From Dyella sp. C11 (GTDB lineage: Bacteria > Pseudomonadota > Gammaproteobacteria > Xanthomonadales > Rhodanobacteraceae), in assembly GCF_003121485.1 (NCBI RefSeq), contig NZ_QAVX01000002.1, forward strand, positions 124,001 through 188,000: 64,000 bases of DNA, given 5' to 3'. A model generated the notes under the pieces. It saw nothing but the letters and a program-made list of their open reading frames with translations, ran no database searches and had not been told where the DNA came from. Position numbers and translations under genes: made by a program. Position 1 is the stretch's first letter, and each line of letters begins with the position of its first letter. Below are positions 13,743 to 40,062 of the stretch, in pieces.

Positions 13743-16700
13743 TCAGGCCAGGTTTTCCAGCGCGCGCATCAGCCGCTTCGCCGAGACCGGCTCCGGCGTC
13801 TTCAATTCCTGCGCGAACAGCGATACGCGCCATTCCTCGATCAACCAGCGCAACTCGTCGAGCCCCTGCGTGCCGGCGGCGCGATGCTTGAGGTAGTCGC
13901 GCCAGAACGGCAACACCTGCAACAGGCGCTGCTGGTCCTTTGCCGGGTCCTGCCGCAAACGCTCGGCGCGCAGGCGCATGGCCTTGAGATAACGCGGATA
14001 GTGCGCAAGGCGTGACGTCGGCAGCTCGCGCAGGAAACCCGGCGTGAGCAGCGCGTCGAATTGTTCGCGCAGGTCGTCGTAGCTGGCGCGTGCAAAACCC
14101 ATCAGTGGCGGTTGCAGCCACGACTTCAGATCGGCCTGCGCTTCGATGATCGGCTCGGCCAGCTTCAACCGTTCCACGGCCGCGCCGAACAGTTCGCGCG
14201 CCGCCTGCGTGTGCAGCGCTTCGAACTTGCCCGCGGTGCGTACATCCAGCGCGTAGCGAGCCAGCAGGTCCTGGAAGCCGCCTTCCACCAGATCCTCGCG
14301 CAGGCCATCCACGCCACCCAGCGGCGCGTACTTCAGCGCCAGCGGGTTGCCGACGGGCAGGCGACGACGCGCCTGTTTCATGTCACTGGCCAACGCATTG
14401 CGCAGCAGGCGAATCACGCCCTGCACATGCGCTTCGCGCGCCTCGTCGCTGCGCTCGAACACGCGCAACGCGACGGCATCACCCAGGTCGACGAGTGCCG
14501 GGAAGGCGAGCAAACCACCCGCTGAGCGCACCTGCGCCGGGATTTCCTCGAAATCCCAGCTGGCGACGTTCTCGCGCGTGAGCTCGATGTCCGTCTTGCG
14601 CGAGAACGCCTCGCGCGCCTGCCCTTCCCACTGCGCGCGGATGACGGCCAGGTCGCGACCCGTCGCCAGGGTCTTGCCGTTTTCGTCGTGAAGGCGATAA
14701 CGCATGCGGAAATGCGCAGGCAGTTCCACCGTATCGAATTCGGCAGCAGCGATGTCCACGCCGGTCGCGCGCTTGAGGAAAGTTGCCAGCGCCTTCGTCA
14801 GCGATTCATCGCGTGGCGCCTCCGCTTCCACGAACGCACGTGCAAAATCCGGCGCGGGCACGAAGTTGCGACGCAGCGCCTTCGGCAAGCCACGAATCAA
14901 TTCCGCCACTTTCTCGGCCAGCAAGCCGGGCACCAGCCATTCGCAACGTGCGGCAGGCAGCGCATTGAGCATGGCCAGCGGCAGGTGCAATGTCACGCCG
15001 TCTGCGTCGTCGCCTGGCACGAAGCGATATTCCAGGCGGTATTTCTGGGGCCGCTCCTGCGCATCCTGCGCTCGCGGCACTCGACCATCCATGGTCATCG
15101 GTGGAACATCGAGCGACGCCGGGAACGCCTTGGGGTCCAGCCCAGCACCACCGCTCATCACATCGTCAAGCGACCAGCGCAGCGCGGCCTGTTCCGCCGG
15201 ACGCGCCTTGCGATACCACGCATCCAGCGCGCGGCTATCGGCGATGTCCTGCGGCAGCTTGCCTTCGAAGAAGCCGACGAGTTCGTCTTCGCTGCGCAGC
15301 AGGCCTTCCCGGCGCTGCTTGGCTTCGATGCCGCGTGCGTCTTCGAGCACGCGCAGGTTGGCGCGCACGAAGTCGGCTCGCGCGTCGATGTCGCCGCGCG
15401 CCAGCGCCTCGCGCAGGAAGATCTGATGCGCCAGCGCCGGGTCCTGTTTCTGGAACGTCACCGGGCGACGCTCGACCAGCGTCAGCCCGAACAGACTTAC
15501 CTGCTCGTAAGCGACCACGTGACCGCGCTTGCGCGACCAGTGCGCATCGCGGCACGACGAGCGCAACAGATGCGCCGCCTGCTGCTCGATCCACACTGGC
15601 TCGATGCGGGCGCACATCATGCCCCACACGCGACCACCCACGTCGAGGATCTGCGCGGCGAAGATCCAGTTGGGTGGGACTTTGGATAGCGCCGAACCAG
15701 GGAACACCTGGAAGCGGCGTTCGCGTGTGCTGCGATAGACGCCCTTCTCGTCCTTGTGGCCGACCTGCGTGGGCAAGCCCGTCAGCAGACTGCGATGGAT
15801 GGCTTCGTATTGCTTCGCCGCCTCGTCGCCGTCACTCCCTCTCCCCTCCGGGGAGAGGGCTGGGGTGAGGGGTGGGTGCTCGCGGGAACCCCGCCTACCC
15901 GAGTTCTTTTCAACAGCCACGACCTTGGCTTGCGAAGCGCCCCGCGAGGCTCGCCCCTCACCCCGCCCCTCTCCCCGGAGGGAAGAGGGAGAGTCCAAGG
16001 TCCAGCCAAGCTCCTGCACCACCAGCAGCAACTGCCGATGCAGCTCGCGCCATTCGCGCATGCGCATGAAGCTCAGGAAGTGCCGCGAGCACCAGTCGCG
16101 CAACTTCGATTGCGTGAGTTCCTCGTGCGCCTTGCCGTACTCGCGCCACAGATTGAGCACACCCACGAAATCGGATTTTGGATCGGCAAACGCCGCATGC
16201 GCCGCATCGGCCTGTTGCCGTGCATCGGCCGGACGTTCGCGAGGGTCCTGGATGCTGAGGAACGACACGATGGCCATCAGTTCGCGCAGGCTGTGCAACT
16301 GCTGTGCTTCGACCAGCATGCGCGCCAGCTGCACGTCGATGGGCAACCTGGCGACAGTGCGGCCAATGGCCGTCAGGCGGCGCGCGTCGTCGATCGCGGA
16401 AATTTCGGCGAGCCGGCGATAGCCATCCGCCACGACGCGCGGGTCGGGCGCTTCCAGGAACGGGAAGTCCTCCACCTCACCCAGCTGCAGCGACAGCATG
16501 CGCAGGATGACGTTGGCCAGCGACGAGCGCAGCAGCTCCGGATCGGTATACGCGGCGCGGCTTTCGTAGTCGGCTTCGTCGTACAGCCGATAGCAGATGC
16601 CCGGTCCCACGCGACCGCAGCGGCCCTTGCGCTGGTCGGCCGCGGCCCGGGAAATCGGTTCGACGTGCAGGCGCTCCAACTGGCTGCGCTGGCTGTAACG

Positions 16701-33968: not shown

Positions 33969-35339
33969 TCAGTGAATGCCCAGGCCGTCGATGCCAGCGA
34001 TGTCGCGGCCGTCGAAGCCGGCCATATCGGCGAAATGACGACCGCGGTCGGCGTAGTCGTGGAATTGGTCGAAGCTGGGCGCACCAGGCGATAGCAGGAT
34101 GCTGCCACCTGCAGGCGTCAGCTCGCGTGCGCGCTTCACCGCGGCATCGAGCTTATCCGCTTCTTCAACCGCGACGCCGGCCTCGCGCAATGCCTGCGCG
34201 ATGCGGGGACCGTTGGCACCCTGCGCCACGATGGCGTGGGGCCGGTGCGCCTTCATCTCGTCGACAAAGTCCTTCCAGTCCAGGCCGCGATCGTGGCCGC
34301 CGACAATCACCGTCACCGCGCGACCCGACAGGCTGGCCAGGGCCGCCAGCGTGGCTTGCGGTGTGGTGCTGATGGAATCGTTGATCCAGTGAAAACCGCC
34401 ATGCTCGCCCAGCGGCTGCAGACGATGCGGCAAGGGGCGGAAGGTGGCCAACGATGGCGCAGCCTCCAGCGTATCAAAACCCATGGTTTCCAGCGCCATC
34501 AAGGCCGCGCAGGCATTGAGCGCATTATGTTCGCCCGGCGCACGCAACTGCGCGATGTCGAACACCGCCTGTGCGCCGCGACGAATATGGCCGCCCGCCA
34601 CATGCCAGCCGCCCGCCGTACCGAACGTGAAGCGATCCGGATGGCGCGCGGTCCGCTGCAGCAGCGATGGCTGCGCGGCGCTGACCAGCAGCTTGGCGGA
34701 TACATCGGCCAGCTTGAGCTTGTCTTCGATATAGCGCTCGCGCGAGCCGTGCCAATCGAGGTGTTCTTCGTAAAGGCTGGTGATCACGCCGAGTTCGAGC
34801 GGGCCCGCCTCACCGGTCTGGAAACTCGACAGTTCGATGGCCCACAGATCAGCGTGTTGATCGAGCAATTCCAGCAGCGGCATGCCGATATTGCCGGCCA
34901 GCGCCGTGCGCACACCAAGACTGCGCGCGAGATGCGCGAGCATCGCCGTGGTGGTGCTCTTGCCCTTGGTGCCGGTGATGGCGACCACGCGCGCCGCTGG
35001 GTTTTCTGCAAACCATAGCGCGGTGCCCGAGGTCACCCGAACACCGGCGTCGCGGGCAGCCAGCAGCGCTGGCTTGTATGCCGAAATGCCGGGCGATTTC
35101 ACCACTACATCGAATGCGGACAGCGCTGTCGCATCCGGCTCGCAGCCCTGCACCACCAGGCTTGCATCGAAGGCCTGGGCGGCAGCGACTTCTGCCTCGC
35201 TGCAGAACAAGCTCAGCGGCAAGCCGGGCAAGCGCGAGCGGACCGCCGTGATCGCTGCCTTGCCTTCGCGACCAAAACCCCAGATCGCCACGCGCTGTGC
35301 AGCGAGATCAGCGATGCGCAGCGGCGTCGCCTGCGTCAC
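33969..35339 (-). CDS. murD2: UDP-N-acetylmuramoyl-L-alanine--L-glutamate ligase MurD2
   Basis: A 456-residue Mur ligase. The ATP-binding loop is ITGTKGKSTTTAML, the middle domain has the family's SLYEEHLDWHGS, and the C-terminal domain has GGHDRGLDW. In Xanthomonas MurD2 adds L-glutamate, not D-glutamate, to UDP-MurNAc-L-Ala; the MurL epimerase then converts the residue. The direct overlap with murL (its GTG start shares four bases with the murL stop) is why I call it MurD2 rather than a normal MurD. The enzyme is cytoplasmic. The specificity is inferred from the pairing. Confidence 0.88.
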   Translation of the reverse strand: MTQATPLRIADLAAQRVAIWGFGREGKAAITAVRSRLPGLPLSLFCSEAEVAAAQAFDASLVVQGCEPDATALSAFDVVVKSPGISAYKPALLAARDAGVRVTSGTALWFAENPAARVVAITGTKGKSTTTAMLAHLARSLGVRTALAGNIGMPLLELLDQHADLWAIELSSFQTGEAGPLELGVITSLYEEHLDWHGSRERYIEDKLKLADVSAKLLVSAAQPSLLQRTARHPDRFTFGTAGGWHVAGGHIRRGAQAVFDIAQLRAPGEHNALNACAALMALETMGFDTLEAAPSLATFRPLPHRLQPLGEHGGFHWINDSISTTPQATLAALASLSGRAVTVIVGGHDRGLDWKDFVDEMKAHRPHAIVAQGANGPRIAQALREAGVAVEEADKLDAAVKRARELTPAGGSILLSPGAPSFDQFHDYADRGRHFADMAGFDGRDIAGIDGLGIH

Positions 35340-36679
35340 GCGAAGAAGGCCAGCGCCGGTTTCAGGCGCGCGGGAAGGCGCTGCTCATCCGAGCCTTGCA
35401 GCCAGGGTTCGAGCGCCAGTTCGCTGGTGTCGAGTTGCGGCAGGATCTCGTGGATGAAGCGTGCGACCAGCGCATCTTCCTGCCACTCCGATCGCTGGCT
35501 CAGCGCATACATGGCCGCGCGCGCCTCGGCGCCCTCGCCCACGCATTCGAACGGCTTGTGATCCTGGTATTCCAGCAACGCATCGAACCCCGGCGCGAGG
35601 TTTTCATCGTCCAGCAGTTTGCGCCCGAAGATGGACAGCAGGCGCGGCTTGGCCAGGAACGGCGCCAGCGCGAGAAACACGAAGTGACACTTCGGACACT
35701 GCCCGCACCAGCGATCCGCCGGCTTGGGGCCGAGGATCTTGAAATTGCGGTTGCAGCTGGAGAATACGTCGAAATACGGCGTGAGCTTGGCGAAGGCACG
35801 CGTGACGGCCAGCTCGGAGAACGGACGCAACAGCGAGCAGTAATCCAGGTCGGCAGCGACATGCGAGTGCAGCCAGTCGCCGAGCAGTTGCTCGAACGCG
35901 TAGCCCTTGCTCCACTGGTGGTTCACTTGCTGGCCGTCGTATTCCAGCGTTGCAGCGGACGCAGAGCGCTCGTTGGCGAAGGCGATGCTGTCGAAGCCGT
36001 AGAGAATGGCGGCCACGGCGAGGATGGCGGAGTTCACCGCCGTCACCGGGATATGGCCGTTCCATGCACCCAGGCGGTTGAGTTCGAACAGACCCGGGGC
36101 GAGCTCGCGCTGGATGTTGAGCATGGGCAAGCCGGTGCGCTCGGCGCAGGCGGCGATCAGCGGCGAGTTGCCGACCCAGACGGCGGTGGCGTCGCCATCG
36201 ATGGATTTGATGGCTTCCACTGCAACCAGCGAATCCTTGCCGCCGCCGATGGGAACCAGGGTGCGATGCGGGAGGCCGAGCGCCTTCGCCTCAGGCTGCT
36301 TCACACCACCACGCGGGAAGTTGATGCGACCGCGCAGATCCAGGCCATTGCGATAAGCGAACTCGGCCAGGCCGTGCAGATACAGCGCATCGAGCAGGTC
36401 CGCCGTGTTGTCATCGAGCGGACCACTGGCCACCTCGATGCGCGGCGGCACGCCGGCCTTGTAGTAGCTCACGCCCGCGACCAGGTGCAGGATCTTCAAC
36501 GCCTGCTCGAACGCCGCCTGATGACTGGCCGGCAGCGTCGGCGCGTTCGGGAAACGCACGCGCTCGATCAGCTCATCGCCGTGATCGAAGGCGTAGACCA
36601 GCTCGGCCACGCCATCGGCGTAGCTGCACCGCACGAAGCGGAATACCTGGGTCAGGCGGGGGTTGATGTTGGTGGTCAC
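35336..36679 (-). CDS. murL: UDP-MurNAc-L-Ala-L-Glu epimerase MurL
   Basis: A 447-residue member of the MurL family. It converts the terminal L-Glu of UDP-MurNAc-L-Ala-L-Glu to D-Glu, replacing the glutamate racemase route. The PP-loop-like segment is VPIGGGKDSLVAVEAI. A zinc-type pair of CxxC appears in RWCGQCPKCHF, with conserved SSCNRNFKI before it. The start is GTG at 36679, eight bases after GGAG. The open frame continues upstream without a stop through a palindromic arm into a DUF559 nuclease gene, so a fused product is formally possible. It overlaps murD2 by four bases. Confidence 0.9.
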   Translation of the reverse strand: MTTNINPRLTQVFRFVRCSYADGVAELVYAFDHGDELIERVRFPNAPTLPASHQAAFEQALKILHLVAGVSYYKAGVPPRIEVASGPLDDNTADLLDALYLHGLAEFAYRNGLDLRGRINFPRGGVKQPEAKALGLPHRTLVPIGGGKDSLVAVEAIKSIDGDATAVWVGNSPLIAACAERTGLPMLNIQRELAPGLFELNRLGAWNGHIPVTAVNSAILAVAAILYGFDSIAFANERSASAATLEYDGQQVNHQWSKGYAFEQLLGDWLHSHVAADLDYCSLLRPFSELAVTRAFAKLTPYFDVFSSCNRNFKILGPKPADRWCGQCPKCHFVFLALAPFLAKPRLLSIFGRKLLDDENLAPGFDALLEYQDHKPFECVGEGAEARAAMYALSQRSEWQEDALVARFIHEILPQLDTSELALEPWLQGSDEQRLPARLKPALAFFA

Positions 36680-37078
36680 GCCTCGGTCTCCATCGCATGC
36701 TCCCTCTCCCCTCCGGGGAGAGGGTTGGGGTGAGGGGTTGGGGCTGGCTAGAGCCTCCAGAATTGCCTCGAGCACGCCTTCAATGTTCGTCAGGACATCA
36801 TTGTTCCAGAAACGCAGCACGCGGTAGCCCTCTTCTCTGAGCTTTCGCGTGCGCGCCTCGTCGTAAGCCATCTGTTCGCCATGTTGACCGCCGTCCAGCT
36901 CCACGATCAAGCCAGCATCCGGGCAGACGAAGTCGGCGATGTACAGGCCGATTTCATTTTGGCGCCGGAATTTCCAGCCTTGCAGGCGGCGATTGCGTAG
37001 CTGATGCCAAAGCAGCTGCTCGGCATCCGTTTGGCCGGCGCGCAGCGTTCTTGCGCGGTCTACGTGCAAACGCTTCAT
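36680..37078 (-). CDS. DUF559-family (Vsr-like, PD-(D/E)XK) endonuclease of a mobile element, open into murL
   Basis: A DUF559 domain of about 115 residues from the ATG at 37078. The nuclease core is visible as IADFVCPDAGLIVELDGGQH, with the acidic D and ExD positions of the PD-(D/E)XK fold, and RVLRFWNNDVL follows, as in Vsr-type enzymes. No stop codon closes the frame: it runs through the left arm as SPNPSPQPSPRRGEG and on into the murL frame. No DNA methylase lies nearby, so a restriction-modification role is unlikely. I infer that it is the mobilising nuclease of the element at 36700-37156. The end given here is the base before the murL GTG. Confidence 0.8.
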
Positions 37079-37156
37079 CCTTGAGCGTCCTTGATTGAAA
37101 CCTTGTCGCGAGCACCCGCCCCTCACCCCAGCCCTCTCCCCGGAGGGGAGAGGGAG
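36700..37156. mobile_element. DUF559 nuclease element with palindromic inverted arms (copy B)
   Basis: About 457 bases between two arms at 36702-36724 and 37132-37154. Each arm has a perfect 10-base stem CCCTCTCCCC around three loop bases, followed inward by GGGGTGAGGGG. The arms are in opposite orientation and enclose the DUF559 gene. The inner side of the right arm (GGGTGCTCGCG, then AAGGTTTCAA) matches the right end of copy C and partly the left end of copy A. The element separates lysAC from murL, genes otherwise in the same direction. This is the only copy of the three with a coding core. Confidence 0.82.
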
Positions 37157-37175
37157 TGAATGGCGGGACCGAGGC

Positions 37176-39794
37176 TTATTCGAGGATGATCTCTTCCGCC
37201 TCATCCCGCAGGTTGTAAGGCGAGGACATCACCTTGCCGTACGCACCGGCCTGCGCCACCAGCACCACGTCGCCTTCCTGCGGTTCCGGCAGGCGGCGGT
37301 CGGTGCCCAGCACGTCGCCGCTTTCGCAGATCGGGCCGACCACCTGGAACAGCGACGTGGCCGGCTCATCCAGCCGCGTGAGATTCACGATCTCGTGCCA
37401 GGCCTCGTACAGCGCCGGACGAATCAGGCTGTTCATGCCCGTGTCCACGCCCAGATAACGGATCTGGCCGTTGCCCTTGCCCTTGGTCTGCGTGACCTTG
37501 GTGATCAGCACGCCCGCGTCGGCGACGAGGTAACGGCCCGGCTCCATCCACAGCTTGTAGTGCGGATAGGCGGCCTTGACTTCGCGCAGCACCTTGTCGA
37601 GTGCGGCGATATCCAGCCGCGCTTCGCCCGGATGCGACGGCACGCCAAGGCCACCGCCGATATCCAGGAAGGTGACGCTGCCGATGCGCTCGGCAAGGCT
37701 GGCCAGCTGACCGTAGACCTCACCCCAGTGACCGTCATCGAGGATGCCCGACCCAAGGTGCGCGTGCAGGCCGCGCACGGTGACGCCATGTGTGTCGGCG
37801 AGACGAAGGAACGCATCCAGCTGTTCCACCGGCAGACCGAACTTGCTGCCGCTGCCGCCCGTGCGCACTTTCTCGTGATGACCCAGGCCGCGACCGAGAT
37901 CGAGGCGAAGCACCACTTCCTTGCCACGGAACAATTCGCCCCAGCTCTCCAGCTGGTACAACGAATCCAGCGACAACGTGGCGCGCGTGGTGAGCGCCCA
38001 GGCGTAGTCCTCGCGGGGAGCGAAGTTGGGAGTGAACAGCAGCGGCGCCGATTCCGGCACCACCGCCATCACGGCCTTCAACTCGCCCGGCGACACGCAT
38101 TCAAAACCGAAACCTTCCTCGGCGAGGGCCTTGAGGATGGCCGGATGCGTATTGGCCTTCACCGCGTAATGCAGGCGATCCACCGCGCCCAGCGTCTTCA
38201 GCTCGCGTGCCTGCTGACGCACGGTAGGAAGGTGATACACGTAGCGCGGCGTGGCACCGGCGCCGATCTTCAGCAGATCGTCACGACGCTCCTGTCGCCA
38301 CCACGACGCTGCCGGCGGCAACACGTCGCCCGTGCCGTACAACGCCTGCCAGCTGGGACCGAACAGCGCGCTATCGTCGGTGCGCAGAGCACCGGCCGTG
38401 ATCAGCAATTCATGCAGGTGCGGCAGCAGATCGTCGACCACGTTCTCGTCAACCACGAACGTGAGATTCAGATTGTTGGACGACTGCGAAATCATGTGCA
38501 CGCGCAGCTGGCCGAACTCGGCGAGCACGGCTGACAGCGTGTGCAGCATGGAACGCATGCCACGACCGACCAGCGTGATCGCCGCGCACGGTGCAATCAC
38601 CTTTACGCGACACACTTTCGCCAGATCACTCGCGAGTGCGGCAAGCGCGTCGGAATCGAGCAGGTTCTCCGTGGGGTCCAGCGACACGGTGACGTTGGTT
38701 TCGGCCGAGCCGATCATGTCCACCGACAAACCGTGCTGCTTGAACTGGGCGAACACGTCGGCAAGAAAGCCGACCTGCTGCCACATGCCGACCGACTCCA
38801 TCGACACCAGCGTGATGCCCTTGCGCGCGCTGATGGCTTTCACACTGGGCGCGTGTTCACGCACTTCCGGACCAATCAGCGTGCCTTCCAGTTCCGGACG
38901 GTTGGTGTCCTTGATCAGCAGTGGCACGCGCGGTTCGCGCAGCGGGGACAGGCAGCGCGGATGCAACACCTTGGCACCGGTGGAGGCGATTTCCTGGGCT
39001 TCTTCGTAATCCAGGCGCTGCAGCAGGCGTGCGCTCGGCACCTGGCGTGGATTGGCGGTGAACATGCCCGCCACGTCCGTCCAGATTTCCACGCGCTGTG
39101 CCTTCAACAACGCACCGAAATACGACGCCGACGTATCCGAGCCGCCACGTCCCAGCAGCACCGTGCGGCCCTGCGATTCACGCGCAATGAAGCCCTGCGT
39201 GATGAACACCTCGCCCAGACCCGCCAGACGTGCGTTGAGCGCGGGATCAGGCTTGCACTCGACCATGGCCGAGAGCAGCTTGGTGCGCTCGTTCTGGTTG
39301 GGCAGCGCGATGGCCGCGAGGCAATCGCGTGCATCCAGCCACTGCGTGTTCAAGCCGCTGTGGGTAAGGAAGGCCGAACCCAGCGCGCTGGACATCAGCT
39401 CGCCGTGCGCCTGGATCAGCGCCGACCACGCAAGCTCGCCCAGCAGCGTGGGGCCGTCCTCAGCCAGCTGTGCAAGTTCGGCGAGTCGTGCACCGAGTGT
39501 TTCCGGAACCGCCAGCTGCATGTGATCGAGCAGGTCGTAATGACGCTGTGCGATCGCTTTGGCAGCCTCGATACGTTTGCCCTTGTCTTCCTGTGCGCAC
39601 ATTTGTTTGAGTGCGTCGGTGATGCCTGACAGTGCCGAAACGACGACGAGCACGCGGGCGCCTTCGGCGCGGCGGCTGGCCACCAGTTCCAGAATGTTCT
39701 GCCAGCGCGGCAGGGTGGCGACACTGGTGCCGCCAAACTTCATCACGATCCAGGGAGCGTCGTTAGACAGCGACGCGGGGCTTTGCGGGTTCAC
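37176..39794 (-). CDS. lysAC: Bifunctional aspartate kinase / diaminopimelate decarboxylase
   Basis: An 872-residue fusion of the first and last enzymes of lysine synthesis. The N-terminal half is aspartokinase: VMKFGGTSVATLPRW near residue 18, GRGGSDTSA, and ACT domains around residues 320-450. The C-terminal half is a PLP-dependent diaminopimelate decarboxylase, with the lysine in HYAVKANTHP, a GGGLGVP phosphate loop and CESGDVLG near the end. Such fusions are known from Xanthomonas and relatives. It draws on diaminopimelate, a peptidoglycan precursor, and sits upstream of murL-murD2 on the same strand. The start is GTG at 39794 behind GAAGGT. Confidence 0.95.
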   Translation of the reverse strand: MNPQSPASLSNDAPWIVMKFGGTSVATLPRWQNILELVASRRAEGARVLVVVSALSGITDALKQMCAQEDKGKRIEAAKAIAQRHYDLLDHMQLAVPETLGARLAELAQLAEDGPTLLGELAWSALIQAHGELMSSALGSAFLTHSGLNTQWLDARDCLAAIALPNQNERTKLLSAMVECKPDPALNARLAGLGEVFITQGFIARESQGRTVLLGRGGSDTSASYFGALLKAQRVEIWTDVAGMFTANPRQVPSARLLQRLDYEEAQEIASTGAKVLHPRCLSPLREPRVPLLIKDTNRPELEGTLIGPEVREHAPSVKAISARKGITLVSMESVGMWQQVGFLADVFAQFKQHGLSVDMIGSAETNVTVSLDPTENLLDSDALAALASDLAKVCRVKVIAPCAAITLVGRGMRSMLHTLSAVLAEFGQLRVHMISQSSNNLNLTFVVDENVVDDLLPHLHELLITAGALRTDDSALFGPSWQALYGTGDVLPPAASWWRQERRDDLLKIGAGATPRYVYHLPTVRQQARELKTLGAVDRLHYAVKANTHPAILKALAEEGFGFECVSPGELKAVMAVVPESAPLLFTPNFAPREDYAWALTTRATLSLDSLYQLESWGELFRGKEVVLRLDLGRGLGHHEKVRTGGSGSKFGLPVEQLDAFLRLADTHGVTVRGLHAHLGSGILDDGHWGEVYGQLASLAERIGSVTFLDIGGGLGVPSHPGEARLDIAALDKVLREVKAAYPHYKLWMEPGRYLVADAGVLITKVTQTKGKGNGQIRYLGVDTGMNSLIRPALYEAWHEIVNLTRLDEPATSLFQVVGPICESGDVLGTDRRLPEPQEGDVVLVAQAGAYGKVMSSPYNLRDEAEEIILE

Positions 39795-39923: not shown

Positions 39924-40062
39924 ACCCTCTCCCCTCCGGCGAGAGGGTTGGGGTGAGGGGCTGCTCTTGCCTCGGTTTCAGGCCGCAAAAAAGCTCGCAC
40001 TTGAAACCTTTCCACGAGCACCCGCCCCCCACCCTGCCCTCTCCCCGGAGGGGAGAGGGAAA
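39924..40062. mobile_element. Short palindromic-arm element between lysAC and fumarase (MITE-like, copy C)
   Basis: About 139 bases with inverted arms at 39925-39947 and 40037-40059. The left stem has one mismatch (GGCGAGAGGG); the right one is perfect. Inside the right arm, GGGTGCTCG followed by AAGGTTTCAA matches the nuclease-start side of copy B, as if the DUF559 gene had been lost by internal deletion. The core has no open frame of note. It lies 11 bases after the fumarase stop and 129 bases before the lysAC start, so it could also act as a transcript-end hairpin. Confidence 0.85.

Follow-up and report, generated by a model that had tools for sequence, protein, structure and literature searches.

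What is a small nuclease gene doing between two inverted palindromic arms that recur, without the gene, elsewhere on the same stretch of chromosome? The question is raised by a 64,000-nucleotide region of Dyella sp. C11 (hereafter the window), for which the initial annotation had proposed that a DUF559 nuclease mobilises the arms enclosing it.

The nuclease locus and its gene-less copies

The nuclease locus lies downstream of a gene for a bifunctional aspartokinase/diaminopimelate decarboxylase (lysA; 37176..39794, minus strand; NF006515) and upstream of murL (35339..36688, minus strand; NF041275, E 8e-235). Its left arm, a palindrome of BoxC/triplex type A with a 10-bp stem and the inward tail GGGGTGAGGGG (36700..36748, plus strand), and its right arm, an inverted copy of the left with the inner leader motif CGGGTGCTCG (37108..37156, minus strand), form a 49-nt inverted repeat with 90% complementarity. 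The enclosed gene (36749..37078, minus strand) encodes a Vsr-like PD-(D/E)XK nuclease of the DUF559 family (PF04480, E 2.6e-41), and the framing first described for this locus is thus confirmed. Between the right arm and the start codon lies a leader (37079..37107, minus strand) that is in part common to the gene-less copies. A solved structural relative of the nuclease is 3hrl (E 3.8e-27), and among 165 DUF559 sequences the D, E and D-G (E-x-D-G core) and the Q-H are conserved at 97-100%; we take these to be the catalytic residues. No stop codon interrupts the DUF559 frame ahead of the left arm, and the frame continues into murL (a 622-aa open frame, 35336-37204), from which a DUF559-murL fusion protein is possible. 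A defence role for the locus was considered and rejected, PADLOC giving weak matches only.

Each of the two arms of the nuclease locus has a stem of 10 bp without mismatch, capped by a loop of 3 bases, and the G-rich tail on its inner side repeats the purine strand of that stem as a mirror image in 9/10 bases. Six stems of the form CCCTCTCCCC-NNN-GGGGAGAGGG are present in the window at no more than three mismatches, with an expectation of 0 from 100 window shuffles. This architecture is that of the BoxC repeats, which were discovered in E. coli during the 1990s, have since been named PIT or TM, and according to PMC4666352 occur in more than 260 genomes, at times as inverted pairs; the same paper reports no association with mobile elements or with flanking-gene function, and describes an intrastrand triplex formed by the E. 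coli motif in vitro. When compared with a few E. coli sequences from Table 1 of PMC4666352, the arms of the nuclease locus have the same three blocks, one of pyrimidines, one of purines and a third rich in G, with mirror symmetry (9/10), and judged by this sequence likeness they are BoxC/PIT/triplex repeats. What sets them apart is the pairing with DUF559 seen here. We found no mobiliser reported for BoxC/PIT/triplex repeats in the open-access literature searched, and no link between DUF559 and repeats in its titles and abstract openings; the arms and the protein family are already known, and it is their pairing that we did not find reported there.

Two nearby copies without the gene were confirmed, both with inverted arms. 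Copy A (15835..15993, without strand) comprises 159 nt, or about 53 codons, in frame within hrpA, and its arms are inverted over 15835-15991 (38 nt, 92%); the HrpA model match is split into two stretches, the better of which ends at residue 688. A terminator role for the arms was rejected, copy A sitting within an open reading frame. Copy C (39924..40062, without strand) lies between the fumarase and aspartokinase/lysA genes, has arms inverted over 39925-40059 (35 nt, 83%), folds end to end (single-strand fold z -7.1), and does keep the two inner sequences previously noted as common with the nuclease element, GGGTGCTCG and AAGGTTTCAA. Across the organism's own genome (4.73 Mb), one DUF559 match stands against 136 stems at no more than three mismatches, the reversed control pattern giving 0. 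We also scanned 855,841 bases for pairs, namely the window and 40 stretches of which some were chosen for holding stems; 52/53 stems were polarised, and among 19 inward-facing pairs of 120-759 bp a single one had DUF559 inside. The own genome also holds a second class of arm pair (560-759 bp; L017, L018, L020, L022, L025-L028, L034 and L041-L043), without DUF559 and with look-alike interiors holding other repeats.

The gene-less copies A and C had been read as internal-deletion derivatives (MITEs) of an autonomous transposon consisting of the arms and DUF559. The arms are indeed common to both, the leader motif (CGGGTGCTCGCG and following bases) exceeds the 99% shuffle level at 17/32 ends tested and in 12/18 gene-less pairs, and in two genomes (G072 and G140) the sole two type-A stems frame DUF559. 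Against this, the coding 3' end of the nuclease element was above shuffle level at only 2/32 ends of gene-less copies; since these copies lack the coding 3' end and keep the leader end, simple deletion within that element does not account for them. Further, target duplications were seen at 0/19 pairs (2-9 bases directly outside the arms), and the type-A nuclease occupies a fixed site, lysA-murL, in 40 loci from 9 genera. The query used here also matches only 3/50,697 phage records and 44/72,556 plasmid records, some of the latter chromosome-sized. With a fixed site, no duplications and an unshared 3' end, the transposon reading of the initial annotation is not supported, and we regard it as quite improbable.

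DUF559 loci and dispersed stems across genomes

Framing of DUF559 genes beyond chance, an expectation carried over from the first reading of the locus, was borne out in each of three samples. In a family census of 147 genomes, inverted arms were identified at 108/129 DUF559 loci (one of the 108, L227, scoring through a simple repeat) compared with 8/254 positional controls, while the weaker-scoring family loci had arms at 7/12 compared with 0/23. A multi-phylum set of 101 loci (80 relatives in named genomes and 29 family loci, the latter shared with the census, less 8 short-flanked ones) gave inverted arms above the controls' 99th percentile at 85/101 loci against 2/277 controls, and an arm score of at least 20 at 80/101 against 0/277. 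For the phylum sample the corresponding figures were 16/29 best-scoring DUF559 loci and 0/57 controls, and among plasmid-collection records 4/8 loci had arms. DUF559 genes without arms, which had been named beforehand as counter-evidence, thus do exist, and were counted at 21/129 family loci, 5/12 weaker-scoring loci, 13/29 phylum loci and 4/8 plasmid-collection loci, E. coli ycjD being one of these last.

In genomes rich in arms some gene is bound to fall between two of them, and DUF559 might then be there by accident, in arms that RAYT or another transposase has spread. About 1.1% of the 855,841 scanned bases, in stretches partly selected for stems, lie inside arm pairs, to be set against the 108/129 framed DUF559 loci, and nuclease clades match arm types (see below). 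Y1_Tnp (RAYT) was unrelated to stems among the 147 family genomes (at least ten stems in 45/98 genomes with it vs 26/49 without; OR 0.8), and BoxC-like words were absent at 7/7 testable Y1 loci, these being the best-scoring ones. Y1_Tnp/RAYT was rejected as mobiliser for this lack of association, and a passenger role for DUF559 appears very improbable.

The presence of DUF559, by contrast with Y1_Tnp, tracks the stems. At least ten stems occurred in 68/98 family genomes with DUF559 (presence at E<=1e-3; 147 genomes in all) vs 3/49 without (OR 34.8), and a within-genus permutation of DUF559 presence against stem counts gave p 5e-5. The phylum sample (398 genomes) behaved alike, with at least four copies of a generic motif in 46/110 genomes with a strong DUF559 match vs 11/288 without (OR 18). 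Stem-rich genomes lacking DUF559, another observation expected to count against the proposal, are rare in the family (the 3/49, namely G092 with 89 stems, G107 with 21 and G075 with 11), but the phylum exceptions reach 136 copies. These 11 (at least four copies) include genomes with 136 (G294; assembly 87% complete), 94 (G452; weak match), 65 (G352) and 31 copies, and 8 genomes hold at least ten motifs without a strong match. Because of these exceptions, some of them copy-rich, the link between DUF559 and stems is strong and not absolute. Apart from such exceptions, the initial proposal for the most part withstood both of these tests, DUF559 genes without arms and stem-rich genomes without DUF559.

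The same tracking (68/98 vs 3/49) could also arise if the arms spread by other means and their carriers need a nuclease fitted to process the hairpin or triplex. One DUF559 member is in fact already tied to the DNA-damage response: PMC12907096 describes Caulobacter VsrA, a DUF559 protein, as required for the SOS response in cells without the ScmA methyltransferase. Such policing leaves unexplained that the arms around the nuclease gene are of its own type, and Y1_Tnp, the single further carrier family examined, showed no link to stems, so that we consider this account hardly more than a slim prospect.

Arm types and their matching nucleases

Arm sequences differ among loci, and based on these differences we recognised type A (CCCTCTCCCC), type B (CCCTCCCCTGC), type C (CCCCTCTCCC) and others. 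Types A, B or C were assigned to 94/150 loci, 30 of the 94 from one side only, and a nuclease tree was reconstructed from 93 of the 94. Arm type changes twice on this tree, the minimum possible for three states, and the nearest nuclease in another genus carried the same arm type at 92/93 loci overall. The same held at 48/48 of the loci whose genome also has a DUF559 of a different type: there too, the nearest nuclease from a foreign genus had the locus's own arm type. The type-A congruence is mostly vertical descent at one site (40/48 loci), and grouping the loci by common flanking proteins gave six distinct contexts for type A, seven for B and six for C (single linkage, rough).

Dispersed stems match the resident nuclease in type. 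Subtracting the nuclease's own arms and setting a threshold of at least five stems, own-type dispersed stems were found in 41/47 genomes with a type-A nuclease vs 19/100 without, 16/17 vs 16/130 for type B, and 22/27 vs 20/120 for type C. Among DUF559-bearing genomes, within-genus permutation gave p 0.0006, 0.0002 and 0.0002 for own types A, B and C, respectively, while nuclease type did not predict dispersed stems of other types (p 0.32-0.92). Contrasts taken once per genus and type ran 26:3 for matching types and 25:25 for mismatched ones (8 ties left out), and are not fully independent because the three types are pooled; type B alone gave 6:2 at genus level (p 0.29, not significant). In the own genus, type C separates 4/4 from 0/8 genomes, a result that gets little weight because it comprises two changes and one independent pair on supported branches. 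Nuclease and arm types therefore agree (two changes on the 93-nuclease tree; contrasts 26:3), and a type-for-type pairing of nuclease and arms is well supported by these comparisons of sequence.

The DUF559 nuclease is kept by purifying selection. The own genus has 20 lysA-murL copies, of which 14 retain the whole domain, 2 are interrupted by a single internal stop and 3 are partial; the remaining one has no profile match and is a remnant by eye. Median dN/dS between intact copies is about 0.12 (90/91 pairs, with synonymous sites close to saturation). None of the three window sites yielded a clean empty site, all being occupied or holding remnants in 20/20 species-level genomes of the genus (partly by eye). 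All three sites look old, and no fresh insertion was seen. Across the 20 genus genomes the hrpA site is mostly type A, with type B in two (L348, L353), degenerate traces only in L343 and L352, an N run in L358 and a broken frame in L355. Site C holds type A in some genomes and type C/D in others, some with a single arm left. At site C of one genome (L328, G113), the pair has collapsed to one hairpin with one half of each arm, likely a deletion footprint.

A change of arm type at a constant site fits conversion or replacement, and the strongest rival explanation is accordingly that of maintenance in place of transposition: the nuclease would cut decayed or foreign arms, gene conversion would homogenise its own type, and new sites would be rare. 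Conserved sites with differing arm types between species (type A in some and B in others in hrpA; A in some and C/D in others at site C) are as this account predicts, and so is G102, a genome with no DUF559 match and a lysA-murL remnant only, which has 8 stems and in which the arms of both gene-less sites have decayed. Maintenance leaves the origin of over a hundred sites unexplained, and G113, with its broken lysA-murL copy and one weak DUF559 match (E 5e-4), yet keeps 109 stems. We regard maintenance alone as unlikely, and it may be the same activity as the nicking and copying proposed below.

Known systems and a two-part reading of the locus

REPIN-RAYT systems consist of a resident nuclease gene flanked by palindromes and of dispersed inward-facing pairs, and are inherited vertically. 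The present locus resembles them in its resident nuclease flanked by cognate palindromes, its many inward-facing pairs and its vertical inheritance, a comparison that draws mostly on general background for REPIN-RAYT and otherwise on PMC3733652 and PMC8266576. Dispersed inverted pairs cognate to a resident nuclease gene, a trait of REPIN-RAYT, were found here, whereas the GTAG/CGTC tags of that system are absent from both strands of the window's six arms. The enzymes also differ, being Y1/HUH there and DUF559, a Vsr-like PD-(D/E)XK nuclease, here. With an unrelated enzyme and no tag, the DUF559-arm system is not a member of REPIN-RAYT. Rickettsia palindromic elements likewise include in-frame palindromic inserts in protein genes, as copy A in hrpA, and we know of no nuclease partner for them. 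Vsr-like homing endonucleases, which home into a single cognate site, tie a related fold to the spread of DNA; they differ from the many dispersed repeats seen here.

On balance we favour, by a modest preference, reading the locus as the resident half of a two-part, REPIN-RAYT-like repeat system with an unrelated Vsr-like nuclease. A single DUF559 gene at a fixed site, enclosed by an inverted pair of arms that each consist of a hairpin and a G-rich tail, would form one half. Its non-autonomous partners would be more than 100 arms of that type lacking the gene, many of them paired and facing inward. The nuclease would act in trans, recognising its own arm type, probably in an extruded or single-stranded hairpin or triplex form, and nicking at the hairpin foot; repair would then copy the arm pair elsewhere, or, where a site is already occupied by a decayed or foreign pair, copy it anew in place of that pair. 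T:G mismatches are nicked by Vsr itself, and given this precedent a nick at the hairpin foot with repair copying, which would leave no target duplication, is the simplest scheme for arm recognition, cutting, and copying or upkeep. We infer that the nuclease mobilises the arms, as first proposed, in this modified sense.

Beyond this locus, the matching of types suggests that the enzyme is a partner of the widespread BoxC repeat family. More tentatively, and with somewhat less than even confidence, we propose that in bacteria at large, with YcjD of E. coli among its members, DUF559 is the missing cognate enzyme of BoxC/PIT/triplex repeats. This would be a second independent nuclease-palindrome partnership beside RAYT-REP, in which the enzyme acts in trans to spread its own type of hairpin and keep it homogeneous. 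These results suggest two or more separate origins for palindromic repeats coupled to a nuclease, and a type-for-type partner enzyme makes the spread of BoxC repeats directly testable.

Several distant loci were also inspected. At the E. coli DUF559 gene ycjD (L194, L202) the only BoxC-like arm lies 3' of the gene, and there is no inverted pair. A sapF-ycjD-fabI query was covered to at least 80% at one place in 3361/5426 E. coli genomes; ycjD was considered as a strain-level empty site and rejected, the ycjD-less site not being clean because efflux genes adjoin sapF in 3/3 strains checked (from 5 listed sapF-only strains). By eye, BoxC-like arms surround DUF559 in direct orientation in N. gonorrhoeae (L389), and a DUF559 gene on a cyanobacterial plasmid (L201) has related arms. 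Finally, one locus (L318; G029:C3:275814-277317) carries three tandem DUF559 genes with arms, in units of 501 bp whose identity to the next unit is 97% and 76%.
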